A DNA stretch of 32,916 nt, taken from positions 1 through 32,916 of the forward strand of contig VGYW01000031.1 of NCBI GenBank assembly GCA_016872875.1, given 5' to 3'. Origin of the DNA: Planctomycetota bacterium. Lineage in GTDB: Bacteria > Planctomycetota > PUPC01 > DSUN01. Below the pieces are notes generated by a model. The model was not told the DNA's origin and ran no database searches. It saw only the letters and a list, made by a program, of their open reading frames with translations. The first letter of the stretch is position 1; every line of letters begins with the position of its first letter. Made by a program: the position numbers and the translations under genes. This document shows positions 1,647-4,892 of this stretch, one piece after another.

Positions 1647-1897
1647 TGATCTGCGATTCCTGCGGCCAGGACCGCGTGCGCACGGACACGTGGACTCTGG
1701 CCTTCCTGCGCCGGGGCTGGCCGCCCGTGACCTTTGCCCGCTTGTGCCCCGGGTGCCGCTACCGGATGGGCCGGGGCGCAATCTTCCACAGGGCGCTGTT
1801 CCTCCTCTGCTGCCTCGCCTTCGTCGCCGCCATCGCGGGCGCGGGCGTGGGAGCCGTCTACCTCGTCCAATGGCTCATCCGCCTAAGCTCCTCGTAG
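1646..1897 (+). CDS. Small zinc-ribbon membrane protein
   Basis: This 83-residue protein starts at a GTG that overlaps the MFS stop codon. The N-terminal part has two CxxC pairs (CDSC near residue 3 and CPGC near residue 34), as in a zinc ribbon. One strongly hydrophobic segment follows at about residues 50-75 and probably spans the membrane. I do not recognise a named family. Its end overlaps the start of miaB by 28 bp in another frame, which fits a tightly packed three-gene unit. The paired cysteines, the overlap at both ends and the TM helix argue that it is real, but it could be a chance frame between two genes. Confidence 0.55.
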   Translation: MICDSCGQDRVRTDTWTLAFLRRGWPPVTFARLCPGCRYRMGRGAIFHRALFLLCCLAFVAAIAGAGVGAVYLVQWLIRLSSS

Positions 1898-3270
1898 TCA
1901 CCTTCGGCTGCCAGATGAACAAGCTGGACAGCGAGGTGGCGGCCGGCCACCTCCTGGAGGCGGGCTACGCCGCGGCCGAAAGCCCCGCCGACGCCGACCT
2001 GATCCTCATCAACACGTGCAGCGTCCGCCAGCACGCCGAGGACAAGGTCTGGTCCCTCCTCGGCACCCTGCGGTCACACAAGCGGCGGAACCCCGGCCTC
2101 GTCATCGGCGTCATCGGCTGCATGGCGCAGCGCGAACGCGACCGCATCCTGGCCCGCATGCCGCACGTGGACCTGGTGTGCGGCCCGCTGGAGCTCGACC
2201 GCCTGCCCGACCTTGTCGAGGAGATTCGCCAGGAACGCCACCACATCCTGGCGGTAGGCGAAGGACACGTCGGCCGCGTCCCGCGAGTCGTGAGCCACCG
2301 CCCCAATCGCTTTCAGGCGTTCGTGGCCATCATGCGCGGCTGCGACAACTTCTGCGCCTACTGCGTCGTCCCCTACGTCCGCGGCCGCGAGGCGAGCCGC
2401 CCGCCCGACGAGATTGCCGAAGAGGTCGCTGCCCTGGTCGCCGATGGCGTCAAGGAGGTCACGCTCCTCGGCCAGAACGTCAACTCCTACGGCCGCACAC
2501 TTGGGGAAAGGGGGAATGACTCCAGGAGTCTTTTGTGCGAAGCACCCCAAGGGGCCGTGAACGGCAAAAGACTCCTGGTGTCATTTCCCCTCCTCCTGCG
2601 GCGGCTCGACTGCATCGCGGGGCTGGAACGCCTCCGCTTCGTCACCTCCCACCCCAAGGACGCCACGGACGAGCTTTTCAGGGCGATGGCCGAGCTGCCG
2701 AGCGTCTGCCCCTACCTCCACCTCCCCGCCCAGAGCGGCTCGAACAGGGTGCTGCGCGACACGAATCGCAGCTACACCCGCGAGCACTACCTCGAGCGCA
2801 TCGCCCGCCTGCGCGAGCTCGTGCCGGGCATCGAGGTCGCAAGCGACTTCATCGTCGGCTTCCCAGGCGAGACCGAGGCCGAGTTCGAGGAGACCGTTGC
2901 CCTCGTGCGCCAGGCCGAGTTCCAGAACTGCTTCATCTTCAAGTATTCCCCGCGCCCCGGCACCAAGGCCGCCGAGATGCCCGACGACGTGCCTTGGGCG
3001 ACCAAGCAGGAGCGCAACCGCCGCCTCCTGGCCGTCCAGGAGGACACCATGCGGCGCCGCAACGCCGCGATGGTCGGCCGCACCGTCGAAGTCCTCGTCG
3101 AGGGCACGAGCCCGCGCGACCCCGCCAACCTCACCGGCCGCACCCGCGCCAACCACATCGTCGCCTTCCCTGCGCAGGCCGCGCTCGCTGGGCAGACTGT
3201 CCTGGTGGAGATCATAGCCGCCACGCCCCTCACCCTTCTCGGCCGGCTCCAGGCCGTTGCCCGCCGCTGA
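1870..3270 (+). CDS. miaB: tRNA-2-methylthio-N6-isopentenyladenosine synthase MiaB
   Basis: This radical-SAM methylthiotransferase adds the 2-methylthio group to N6-isopentenyl-A37 of tRNAs reading UNN codons. The protein is 466 residues, near the usual length. The N-terminal UPF0004 domain has the three cluster-binding cysteines in FGCQMN, NTCSVR and GCMAQ. The radical-SAM motif CDNFCAYC follows at about residues 158-165, and a TRAM-like domain with TVEVLVEG and TGRTRANH forms the C-terminus. Start ATG 1870 gives MAHPPKLLVVTFGCQMN, which matches the family; the open frame further upstream does not. Residues about 214-241, between the conserved QNVNSYG and GLERLRF blocks, are encoded by a palindromic repeat and have no counterpart in ordinary MiaB, yet the frame is kept and all key residues remain. 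RimO/MtaB relatives are less likely given QNVNSYG and the overall spacing. Confidence 0.93.
   Translation: MAHPPKLLVVTFGCQMNKLDSEVAAGHLLEAGYAAAESPADADLILINTCSVRQHAEDKVWSLLGTLRSHKRRNPGLVIGVIGCMAQRERDRILARMPHVDLVCGPLELDRLPDLVEEIRQERHHILAVGEGHVGRVPRVVSHRPNRFQAFVAIMRGCDNFCAYCVVPYVRGREASRPPDEIAEEVAALVADGVKEVTLLGQNVNSYGRTLGERGNDSRSLLCEAPQGAVNGKRLLVSFPLLLRRLDCIAGLERLRFVTSHPKDATDELFRAMAELPSVCPYLHLPAQSGSNRVLRDTNRSYTREHYLERIARLRELVPGIEVASDFIVGFPGETEAEFEETVALVRQAEFQNCFIFKYSPRPGTKAAEMPDDVPWATKQERNRRLLAVQEDTMRRRNAAMVGRTVEVLVEGTSPRDPANLTGRTRANHIVAFPAQAALAGQTVLVEIIAATPLTLLGRLQAVARR
2510..2590. repeat. 81-bp palindromic insertion element in frame inside miaB
   Basis: Arms 2510-2535 and 2565-2590 are inverted copies matching at 24 of 26 positions, with a 29-bp loop. 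The palindrome is 81 bp, exactly 27 codons, so the miaB frame survives. It encodes an extra segment between conserved blocks. This resembles in concept the Rickettsia palindromic elements that insert in protein genes; sequence relatedness to them is not claimed. Confidence 0.85.
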
Positions 3271-3303
3271 GGGCCGGTGCGGTGGACCGGCTCGATGTTC
3301 AAA

Positions 3304-3317
3304 CATTCTATAGAATG
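3304..3317. promoter_or_regulatory. Palindromic operator-like site, copy 1
   Basis: Perfect palindrome CATTCTATAGAATG, preceded by AA and followed by ATTGATTAT. No plausible -35 box at the right distance, so it does not look like a promoter. Confidence 0.75.
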
Positions 3318-3420
3318 ATTGATTATCATACACGCCGCTCGCTCGCGCCTCTCGGCGCCCAGCGTCAGTGCCGCTGCCCGGCCGTCAGGGCGGAGGGAGT
3401 GGGCCGGCTCGATGCTCAAA

Positions 3421-3434
3421 CATTCTATAGAATG
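3421..3434. promoter_or_regulatory. Palindromic operator-like site, copy 2
   Basis: Perfect palindrome CATTCTATAGAATG followed by ATTGATCAT. The flank forms a second, overlapping palindrome ATGAT-TG-ATCAT, giving a composite site. Confidence 0.75.
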
Positions 3435-3537
3435 ATTGATCATCACCCACGGCAGTCACTCGTGCCTGTCGGCGCACAGCGTCAGTGCGGCTGCCCGGCC
3501 GTGAGGGCGGAGGGAGTGGGCCGGCTCGATGTTCAAA

Positions 3538-3551
3538 CATTCTATAGAATG
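3538..3551. promoter_or_regulatory. Palindromic operator-like site, copy 3
   Basis: Perfect palindrome CATTCTATAGAATG with the same ATTGATCAT right flank as copy 2, exactly 117 bp after it. Confidence 0.75.
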
Positions 3552-3654
3552 ATTGATCATCACCCACGGCAGTCGCTCGCGCCTGTCGGCGCACAGCGTT
3601 GGTGGTGCTCCCCGCCCGCAAGGGCCGACGGGGTGGATCGGCCCGATGCTCAAA

Positions 3655-3668
3655 CATTCTATAGAATG
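3655..3668. promoter_or_regulatory. Palindromic operator-like site, copy 4
   Basis: Perfect palindrome CATTCTATAGAATG with right flank ATTGATCAT. The rest of this unit has diverged, while the site itself is unchanged. Confidence 0.75.
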
Positions 3669-3779
3669 ATTGATCATCACATGCGCCAGTCGCTCAAGGC
3701 TGTCGGCGCGCAGAATCAGTGCCGCCGCCTGCCCGTATGCCCGTCGGGGGCGATGGTCTGGGCCGGCTTGATGTTCAAA

Positions 3780-3793
3780 CATTCTATAGAATG
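3780..3793. promoter_or_regulatory. Palindromic operator-like site, copy 5
   Basis: Perfect palindrome CATTCTATAGAATG with right flank ATTGATTAT, 125 bp after copy 4 and about 50 bp from the regulator's stop codon. Confidence 0.75.
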
Positions 3794-3840
3794 ATTGATT
3801 ATCATGTGCGCCGGTCCGTCGCGCCTGTCCGCGCACAGAG

Positions 3841-4122
3841 TCAGTCCAGCGTCTTGAGGAAGGCCAGGACAGCTTGCGCGCGCGGCGTTAGGCGGTGCCG
3901 CACCCAGCGCCCTTGGTGCCGCTTGGTGACAAGCCCCGCCAGGGCCAGTTTGCGCACGTGCTCGGAGGCGGCCTGGGTCCCGACGCGGAGACTCCTGCAT
4001 ATGTCCCACAACGTGAGTTCGGGCCGTTGCACGAGAAGCCGCATCATCTGAATGCGTCGGTGATTGGCGAAACCCTTGACGATCCGCTCCAGCTTCCGTT
4101 CACTTGTGGTTGCTTGCTCCAT
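3841..4122 (-). CDS. ArsR-like winged-helix transcriptional regulator
   Basis: This 93-residue protein has the ArsR/SmtB fold pattern. An N-terminal helix ends in KGFANHRRIQMMRLL, followed by the helix-turn-helix LTLWDICRSLRVGTQAASEHVRKLALAGLV and a wing with RWVRHRLTPRAQ. Such proteins bind palindromic DNA as dimers. The metal-sensing CxC of classical ArsR/SmtB is missing; the only cysteine is in DIC, so it is probably not a metal sensor. I chose the ATG at 4122 because GGGGGAG lies about 10 bases upstream; the longer frame from 4173 would start inside operator copy 6. Copy 6 covers the -10 box of its predicted promoter, so autoregulation is likely. Its 3' end abuts the five-site array. The closest known analogy for an ArsR-fold protein on a tandem array is TubR on plasmid tubC centromeres, but no TubZ is seen here. 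Confidence 0.85.
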   Translation of the reverse strand: MEQATTSERKLERIVKGFANHRRIQMMRLLVQRPELTLWDICRSLRVGTQAASEHVRKLALAGLVTKRHQGRWVRHRLTPRAQAVLAFLKTLD

Positions 4123-4170
4123 TCCTTGTTCTCCCCCAATCGGGCCTGTGGAGGGTTGCTGATGATCAAT

Positions 4171-4184
4171 CATTCTATAGAATG
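4171..4184. promoter_or_regulatory. Palindromic operator, copy 6, in the regulator promoter
   Basis: Perfect CATTCTATAGAATG with the extended flank, in the opposite orientation to the other copies, so that it reads in the direction of the regulator's transcription. It lies 49-62 bp upstream of the regulator's ATG and includes the predicted -10 hexamer TATAGA (4174-4179). Binding here would block RNA polymerase. Confidence 0.8.
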
Positions 4185-4201
4185 TTTCAGCGGTCCGCCA
4201 A
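4174..4201 (-). promoter_or_regulatory. Predicted promoter of the ArsR-like gene
   Basis: On the minus strand, TTGGCG (4196-4201) is separated by 16 bp from TATAGA (4174-4179). The predicted start, near 4167, would leave a leader of about 45 nt that includes a good ribosome binding site. None of the array copies has an equivalent -35 box. Confidence 0.5.
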
Positions 4202-4892
4202 CACCCTTGTGTCCTTCCTCAGCGGGTCAAGAAGAGAGCAGAAGCGGGAGGCATCCCCTTGTCGTCAACTGTGCCCGACGCAGCCCGTCCCCCTCTATGG
4301 CTGCGGTCAGGGGCGCGGCAGGGAGAAGACGTGCGGGCGACTGCCGCCCGCTGGCGTCGTCGGGGGGGGCGCAACGCAGGAGAGGGACGGTCCTGGTTGT
4401 CCGACCATTCCTCACCAGCCTTGTGCAGAGGGCTCAGGCCGTTGATCATATTCTAACATTCTATAGAATGATTGATCATGGCGCCCACCCACTTCTGCGG
4501 GCCGATGAGCGGACAGGGCAGGGACGCGTTGCGCCGCTGCCGGGGGAAGCAGGAACCCACGGCCGCGCCCACGCTCCTCTGCCCCCCGTTCGGCGGCCCG
4601 GAGAAGCCGCCAGCACGTGGATTCCCCCCCAAGCCGAGCCCGGCGGCCATGACACCGGCCGGGCGCGCCGCAACGACCCAGGCACAGGAGGGCCACCGGG
4701 CAGCGTGGGATTGCGCGCCCTCGCCGACCCTCCGGCTGGCACAATCTGCCGGGTCTCCGGAGAGATGGATCCGGCCTTTCCCCGTTCAGGGCAGCCTCCG
4801 GCGGCTCGCCTCTGTGATGCGGGGATTCTCCGCCCCGGAGGGGCCTGCTGCCTCCCGCGCCGCGTCCCGGTGCTTTGCGCAACAGGAGATAA
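4185..4892. other. 708-bp non-coding stretch with operator copy 7
   Basis: No frame on either strand gives a recognisable protein or a good ribosome binding site. The content is GC-rich apart from operator copy 7. A short perfect hairpin GCCCC-GGA-GGGGC (4832-4844) sits about 50 bp beyond the 3' end of the aldolase gene; it lacks a T-run, so it is only a weak terminator candidate. Decayed genes or an unrecognised RNA cannot be excluded. Confidence 0.5.
4457..4470. promoter_or_regulatory. Palindromic operator-like site, copy 7
   Basis: Perfect CATTCTATAGAATG with right flank ATTGATCAT, 286 bp from copy 6 and not next to any gene start. Its wider flanks are unrelated to the tandem units, so only the site itself is shared. 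Confidence 0.75.

Follow-up and report, generated by a model that had tools for sequence, protein, structure and literature searches.

Why should the gene for a small DNA-binding protein be surrounded by seven identical palindromes, five of them lined up in tandem between two convergent gene ends, where promoters are not expected? This arrangement is found in a 32,916-base stretch of contig VGYW01000031.1 from a Planctomycetota bacterium (hereafter the window), around a gene encoding a 93-residue ArsR-like protein beside miaB. We examined the palindromes and the gene in the window and in related loci, with genome-wide scans made on the genomes of relatives. The seven palindromes are predicted, with high confidence, to be binding sites of the ArsR-fold protein encoded among them. 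Overall, we favor, with a probability of about 0.5, the reading that the protein is an autorepressor, that sites at gene 3' ends serve as DNA-bound transcription barriers and that the tandem array is an amplified 3' site.

Results

Seven palindromes surround a predicted winged-helix regulator gene

The 14-mer CATTCTATAGAATG occurs in seven exact copies with axis-to-axis distances of 117, 117, 117, 125, 391 and 286 bp (Table 1). Beyond these seven, no copy with up to two mismatches was found in the window, and shuffled windows contained 0.01 copies on average and one at most. The motif ATTGATYAT follows all five array palindromes and the 4457 copy on the 3' side and lies inverted on the 5' side of the 4171 copy; every core is flanked by longer, imperfect symmetry. 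A preliminary description of this DNA had reported the same positions and spacings, the same right flank in the array and the placement of the array between the converging ends of miaB and the regulator gene, all of which were reproduced. It had also set one copy on the -10 box of the regulator's promoter. The 4171 copy does overlap the second hexamer of a sigma-70-like match (TTGGCG-18-TAGAAT), but the match is weak at 9/12, and a consensus match is no proof of a promoter. The five array palindromes sit in a 117-bp tandem repeat of 5.0 copies, whose units are 80-93% identical to the reference unit and whose first unit starts within the 3' end of miaB. Because all five lie within one tandem repeat, they are not independent and go back to one ancestral unit. 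The window contained no Rfam family at gathering score, a blastn search found no relative of the array among plasmids, and the 20-base pattern CATTCTATAGAATGNTTGAT was absent from the viral contigs searched.

The 93-residue product of the open reading frame (ORF) is an ArsR/SmtB-family winged helix by sequence and predicted fold. It matched PF01022 at 24.1 bits (cut-off 22) and PF13463 at 27.7 bits (cut-off 22.2), and its NF033788 score of 52.8 fell slightly below the cut-off of 55. An AF2 model built with 31 aligned relatives had a confidence score (pLDDT) of 88.5; Foldseek placed MarR and ArsR proteins at the top, with AspA of pNOB8 (4rs8 and 5k5q) at ranks 32 and 35. The regulator lacks any catalytic domain. 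It contains a single cysteine (Cys-42) and histidines at 21, 55, 69 and 76, and its sequence lacks the metal-binding residue pairs of ArsR/SmtB metalloregulators. Its own site is present at its own promoter in the window and in relatives, as expected of an autorepressor.

Most related genes carry the palindrome at both ends

Searching with the protein identified 345 relatives; among the best 120, those with names come from Planctomycetes, Kaiserbacteria and other Patescibacteria, and the rest from unnamed bacteria. The best 80 matches from the genome-contig scan yielded 78 distinct loci, of which 76 were long enough to compare. The regions upstream and 3' of the gene share a 20-mer at 17/20 or better in 71 of the 76 loci, and two shuffles per locus, used as control, scored 13-17. 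In this family the palindrome takes the form ATTC-N5-TTCT-NN-AGAA-N5-GAAT or ATTC-N5-TTTTGCAAAA-N5-GAAT. The 3' copy covers the last codons or the stop in 67/78 loci and lies 43-75 bp downstream in 8/78; the site went unscored in three (contig end in L055, a site at +149 in L056, a weak one in L045). Because the 3' copy extends over the last codons and the stop, part of the protein tail is translated operator, as in the C-terminal tails VLTFLRTLE and ILVFCKRLE of overlapping loci. The same core class is found upstream and 3' in 67 of the 78 loci. Four carry TTCTATAGAA upstream but TTCGTTAGAA at the gene end, and seven have one side unclassed or outside any class. The two sites of a bracketing pair are 275-423 bp apart (n = 70 pairs). 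In one genome (G001, contig C662; loci L093 and L228), a broken relic of a family gene keeps its 3' site beside two ATTCTATAGAAT sites.

The nearest relative with DNA compared, L001 (81%), bears on the origin of the array. In both the window and L001 the coding tail has no site, and the nearest sites are at +57 and +56, respectively; L001 has four cores, two of them in a tandem repeat 111 bp apart. Since both tails have lost the site, sites lie just downstream and L001 has its own tandem, we take the array of the window to be the family's 3' site in amplified form. Tandem sites spaced by 111-129 bp occur in six loci (L001, L010, L065, L085, L264 and the window at 3304-3793), with spacers that are unlike each other. 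An array beside the gene, which the preliminary description had suggested looking for in related genomes, is not the rule: most relatives have a single site per gene end, and clusters of at least three appear only in some loci, for example L001, L010 and L065. The preliminary description had named orthologs without adjacent arrays as a refutation of its view; this applies to the array itself but not to adjacent sites. The earlier account of the array had the sites right and missed its tandem-repeat origin, the conservation of a site at the 3' end and the fact that in relatives this site overlaps coding sequence.

Palindrome core and recognition helix covary

Core variants are named TTTTGCAAAA and TTCTTGAGAA. 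When loci were sorted by the upstream site alone, the TTTTGCAAAA core went with the recognition helix N[AT]SDH in 38/38 loci and the TTCTNNAGAA core with other helices in 34/34 (29 KTxSEH, 4 NISAH and 1 QAxSEH), the N[AT]SDH helix occurring with the TTCTNNAGAA core in 0/34; the helix motif classes were defined after inspection of the table, and kinship inflates these counts. Six further loci had another core or no upstream site. Paralogues of both classes coexist in four genomes, where each paralogue keeps its own core at its two ends. In additional loci, GC cores were seen by eye alongside KTIS[EQ]H-like helices. This covariation of core and helix, which extends to paralogues within a single genome, makes it very probable that the protein binds the sites.

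Gene and palindrome are linked across genomes

The linkage sample comprised 771 genomes (392 Planctomycetota and 379 Patescibacteria). The gene is sporadic, being present in 3/392 Planctomycetota (E 1e-15) and 20/379 Patescibacteria (profile, E 1e-12), counts that each include the centre genome. A genome can carry several family genes; G001 has three strong matches. A tree of 79 family proteins showed the phyla intermixed, although its resolution was poor and it does not prove transfer. A combined 28-base pattern was found in 3/3 Planctomycetota with the gene (4, 25 and 10 matches) versus 6/389 without it, most of the six having T-rich matches, and in 12/20 Patescibacteria with the gene versus 18/359 without it (p = 5e-10). 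The reversed pattern gave two matches in the 379 genomes and one in the 392. For genomes of the TTTTGCAAAA class, that form with up to three mismatches was present in 19/20, at 1-12 copies, and controls gave 0. G001 has 22 exact 12-mers within 8.9 Mb, well short of the hundreds of genome-wide copies that the preliminary description would have counted against a link with the regulator. Its proposal that the small regulator binds the sites is supported by bracketing, by linkage over the 771 genomes and by helix/core covariation.

Solo sites favor the 3' ends of genes

Sites away from family genes were collected at a palindrome score of at least 11/14, weaker ones being dropped, and genes were called with a simple purpose-built finder. 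The resulting 44 solo sites divide into 34 intergenic and 10 within ORFs. Among the intergenic sites, 17 have a stop and 2 have a start no more than 40 bp away; by orientation of the neighboring genes, 10 are convergent and 4 divergent. This bias to stops over starts weakens promoter operators as the sole role of the sites. In G097, 29 sites (two at the regulator) comprise 17 in tandem gaps, 5 convergent, 3 divergent and 4 in ORFs, MnmE being the sole confirmed gene of the last four. All G001 sites examined are intergenic, some of them convergent. The ten site-adjacent genes there (DUF6785, anthranilate synthase I, GH130, lactamase fold, amidohydrolase, aminotransferase, AAT, URO-D and two without a family) do not make up a coherent regulon.

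Palindromes within ORFs are translated in frame, mostly as HSNILKNMRM-like peptides, in TrmD, AtpG, AtpA, UvrC, TsaD, IleRS, MnmA, Pcm and a likely glycosyltransferase (by eye), while in Dus the palindrome is read in a different frame. Taking genes with a site inside or within 100 bp of the 3' end, RNA-modification genes account for 10 of 46 (TrmD x2, Dus x3, RsmI x2, MiaA, MnmA and TsaD) versus 0 of 30 controls (p = 0.005), in a comparison that was chosen post hoc, counted orthologues separately, left 6/46 genes not looked up and used controls of which 9 had no Pfam family, one was a generic methyltransferase and two were aminoacyl-tRNA synthetases. We treat the link to RNA-modification genes as a lead only. 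Other tRNA-modification neighbors are MnmE, which carries a site in G097, and MiaB, which adjoins the window array.

Some sites look like inserts and some recur at the same genes

Alignment of AtpG revealed a 14-column insert at the site that is missing in 13/14 aligned relatives; 6/14 relatives carry other extra residues in the same loop. The site peptide of TrmD is missing in 15/16 relatives, and the MnmA comparison likewise supports an insert. Comparisons for MnmE, AtpA and Dus showed no insert at the site, and the one for IleRS pointed neither way. Three genomes carry near-perfect palindromes in dus at identical or almost identical codons, each with a different core (GC, CA and AT), and in the argG-argH gap the sites of two genomes have different cores and a third genome has no site. 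Genes neighboring solo sites were again beside solo sites in another genome in 15/62 cases versus 10/214 for controls (p = 2e-5), the 15 falling to 11 when the close relatives G013 and G790 were left out; a broader count of 26/88 versus 12/224 also took in regulator genes and neighbors of their own sites. Recurring sites can be read as kept and re-matched, or as the same spots used repeatedly. The missing inserts, the core changes in dus and the same-gene recurrence weaken pure random insertion. A Y1 transposase was not found in 4/20 palindrome genomes, some of which may be incomplete drafts, which argues against it as an obligatory mover.

Palindrome arms covary in some genomes

At offsets 7-10, the arms paired at 0.94 in G018 and 0.88 in G016 and G017 together, versus 0.52 and 0.55 in swapped pairs, a signal favored by the filter that dropped sites with fewer than 10/14 paired positions (2/14 in G018 and 4/21 in G016 and G017). 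Beyond the filter, at offsets 15-18, pairing was 0.88 and 0.62 versus 0.58 and 0.40 in swapped pairs. G097 showed no covariation at offsets 7-10 (0.78 vs 0.83) and G001 little (0.77 vs 0.69). The sets mix cores. Either a hairpin role or template-switch correction, which would give the same arm-pairing pattern in palindromes, is possibly behind this pairing. At three G097 loci (L252, L253 and L262) the arms extend further, with sequence particular to each site, and reach roughly 20 or more paired bases on either side.

Discussion

A proposed barrier at gene ends and its alternatives

By occupying the -10-like site, the 93-residue protein probably represses its own promoter. The family's near-constant 3' site would have been multiplied here by tandem duplication, giving five sites that face the regulator gene and miaB. 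Whether protein bound at gene ends forms a physical barrier to RNA polymerase is more tentative, and we put it somewhat below an even chance; such a barrier would close the gene's own feedback and, where no terminator-like stem is present, keep convergent transcription apart. ArsR is named among the proteins that block RNA polymerase as roadblocks in one report (PMC10310618). We rank the barrier first because the 3' ends and convergent gaps that hold the sites are places where one would not look for promoters, and because no terminator-like site was found within 3200-4600.

Several observations count against this proposal. The five-site array is not conserved among related loci. A gene-end barrier does not predict the 10 of 44 solo sites inside ORFs, and the preference for stops weakens when the limit is widened to 100 bp (24 of the 34 intergenic sites by a stop versus 11 by a start). 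Eight of the 20 gene-bearing Patescibacteria have no exact pattern match, and in G487 (L273-L275) 11 palindromes occur with no family gene found at E 1e-12, either because the gene is missing from the draft or because the regulator is more distant. The arm covariation beyond the core in two Patescibacteria sets is more in keeping with a folded hairpin than with simple recognition of the duplex.

The closest rival to the barrier is looping autorepression, in which a dimer bound at the promoter would join one bound at the 3' site or array, holding the gene in a small loop, and extra copies would raise the odds of looping. The two matched sites, 275-423 bp apart, of the 70 bracket pairs suit this model, as does the reappearance of the 3' site downstream once it is lost from the coding end. 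It nevertheless appears unlikely, given that helical phasing of the 70 distances, which are not independent, is weak (at 10.5 bp, R 0.22 versus an expectation of about 0.12) and that solo sites far from any regulator are left unexplained. Somewhat more doubtful is a mobile palindrome comparable to Rickettsia palindromic elements or repetitive extragenic palindromic (REP) elements, with the regulator gene resident between two copies. Such mobility would explain the sporadic spread of a gene with paralogues, the solo sites, both those at gene ends and those in frame within genes, and the insert in AtpG, to which MnmA and TrmD point likewise. On the other side, AtpG-type loops vary in length regardless, MnmE, AtpA and Dus have no insert, sites recur at the same genes in other genomes (with three cores in dus), the regulator has no catalytic domain and the Y1 transposase was not found in every genome.

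A hairpin at mRNA 3' ends, or a cruciform, used by the protein or a host factor seems improbable. The covarying arms at offsets 15-18 and the position of sites after stop codons would suit it, but G097 and G001 show no or little arm covariation, the core follows the DNA-recognition helix, a T run is absent and template-switch correction offers another source for the arm pairing. We see very little likelihood that surplus sites act as a sponge that soaks up the repressor and sets a threshold for its promoter: seven sites do lie close to one promoter, yet most relatives have only two, and the fixed 3'-end position would be unexplained. A centromere-like or DNA-organising site is just as remote. 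The winged-helix fold, the presence of AspA in the Foldseek list and the occurrence of sites both in tandem and dispersed speak for it; against it, neither ParA nor TubZ was among the 14 window proteins scanned, paralogues of differing specificity share one genome and the array is not conserved.

Relation to known systems

The protein resembles ArsR/SmtB-type autorepressors (SmtB, CadC, HlyU and SqrR) in winged-helix fold, in sequence and in the palindromic site at its own promoter. It differs from them in having one cysteine, and its family in having a second site fixed at the gene 3' end and solo gene-end sites. AspA and TubR are plasmid centromere-binding proteins in which a winged helix binds repeated sites; in contrast to these, no partition partner was among the proteins scanned here, and neighbors such as miaB are chromosomal. 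REP elements with REP-associated tyrosine transposase (RAYT) genes offer another parallel, in that palindromes flank a gene and are scattered at gene ends as well, although the protein here is a winged helix and not a Y1 transposase. TTF-I binds promoter and terminator arrays, and RTP/Ter likewise affords a gene-end comparison. Roadblock proteins (PMC10310618) form a further parallel. The likeness to all of these would lie in gene-end binding, with barrier activity only presumed here. Rickettsia palindromic elements, according to two reports, lie between genes and in frame within conserved genes, as here (PMC10969869, PMC2229807); they measure about 105-150 bp versus about 28-34 bp here, where there is a cognate DNA-binding protein and part of the sites are not insertions. 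No description of the family was found among the titles and abstracts listed from the open-licence literature. The parts are of known kinds, and their combination appears new.

In most family genes the presumed operator lies within the gene's own coding end, so that a single record gives both protein and target. How DNA-binding specificity evolves is thereby directly testable, with many natural variants and with paralogues in one cell. We tentatively suggest, as a view with the odds against it, that these are self-labelled regulators whose binding code is written twice, at the promoter and in the last codons, and whose sites at gene 3' ends or within tRNA-modification and other housekeeping genes change in step with the regulator, providing dedicated, evolving gene-end barriers common to Planctomycetota, Verrucomicrobiota and Patescibacteria. 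If protein bound at gene ends does stop transcription, this would be regulator-based gene ending or insulation in lineages that are almost all uncultured. The multiplied tail-end site may point to an uncommon way of using binding sites where genes end.

Features of the window

Table 1. Coordinates of the regulator gene, the palindromes and neighboring features in the window.
Feature	Position	Strand	Basis
ArsR-like winged-helix regulator gene, 93 residues	3841..4122, stop included	-	profile matches, AF2 model
Tandem array, 5.0 diverged 117-bp units, one palindrome each	3253..3845	.	repeat analysis
Array site 1, about 40 bp past the miaB stop	3304..3317	.	exact match
Array site 2	3421..3434	.	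exact match
Array site 3	3538..3551	.	exact match
Array site 4	3655..3668	.	exact match
Array site 5, axis +57 bp from the regulator's last sense codon; position of relatives' 3' site	3780..3793	.	
Upstream (promoter) site, axis 56 bp 5' of the start codon; on the -10-like hexamer	4171..4184	.	
Further upstream site	4457..4470	.	exact match
Weak promoter-like match, 9/12	4172..4201	-	consensus match
miaB ORF (tRNA methylthiotransferase), convergent neighbor, tail in array unit 1	1690..3270	+	

An inverted repeat also lies in frame within miaB, its 26-base arms (2510-2535 and 2565-2590) separated by a 29-base loop. The 13-base core of its arms has no second occurrence in the window or the collected loci. 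MiaB proteins are usually shorter at this region, and the inverted repeat resembles a further palindromic insert, one from a different family.
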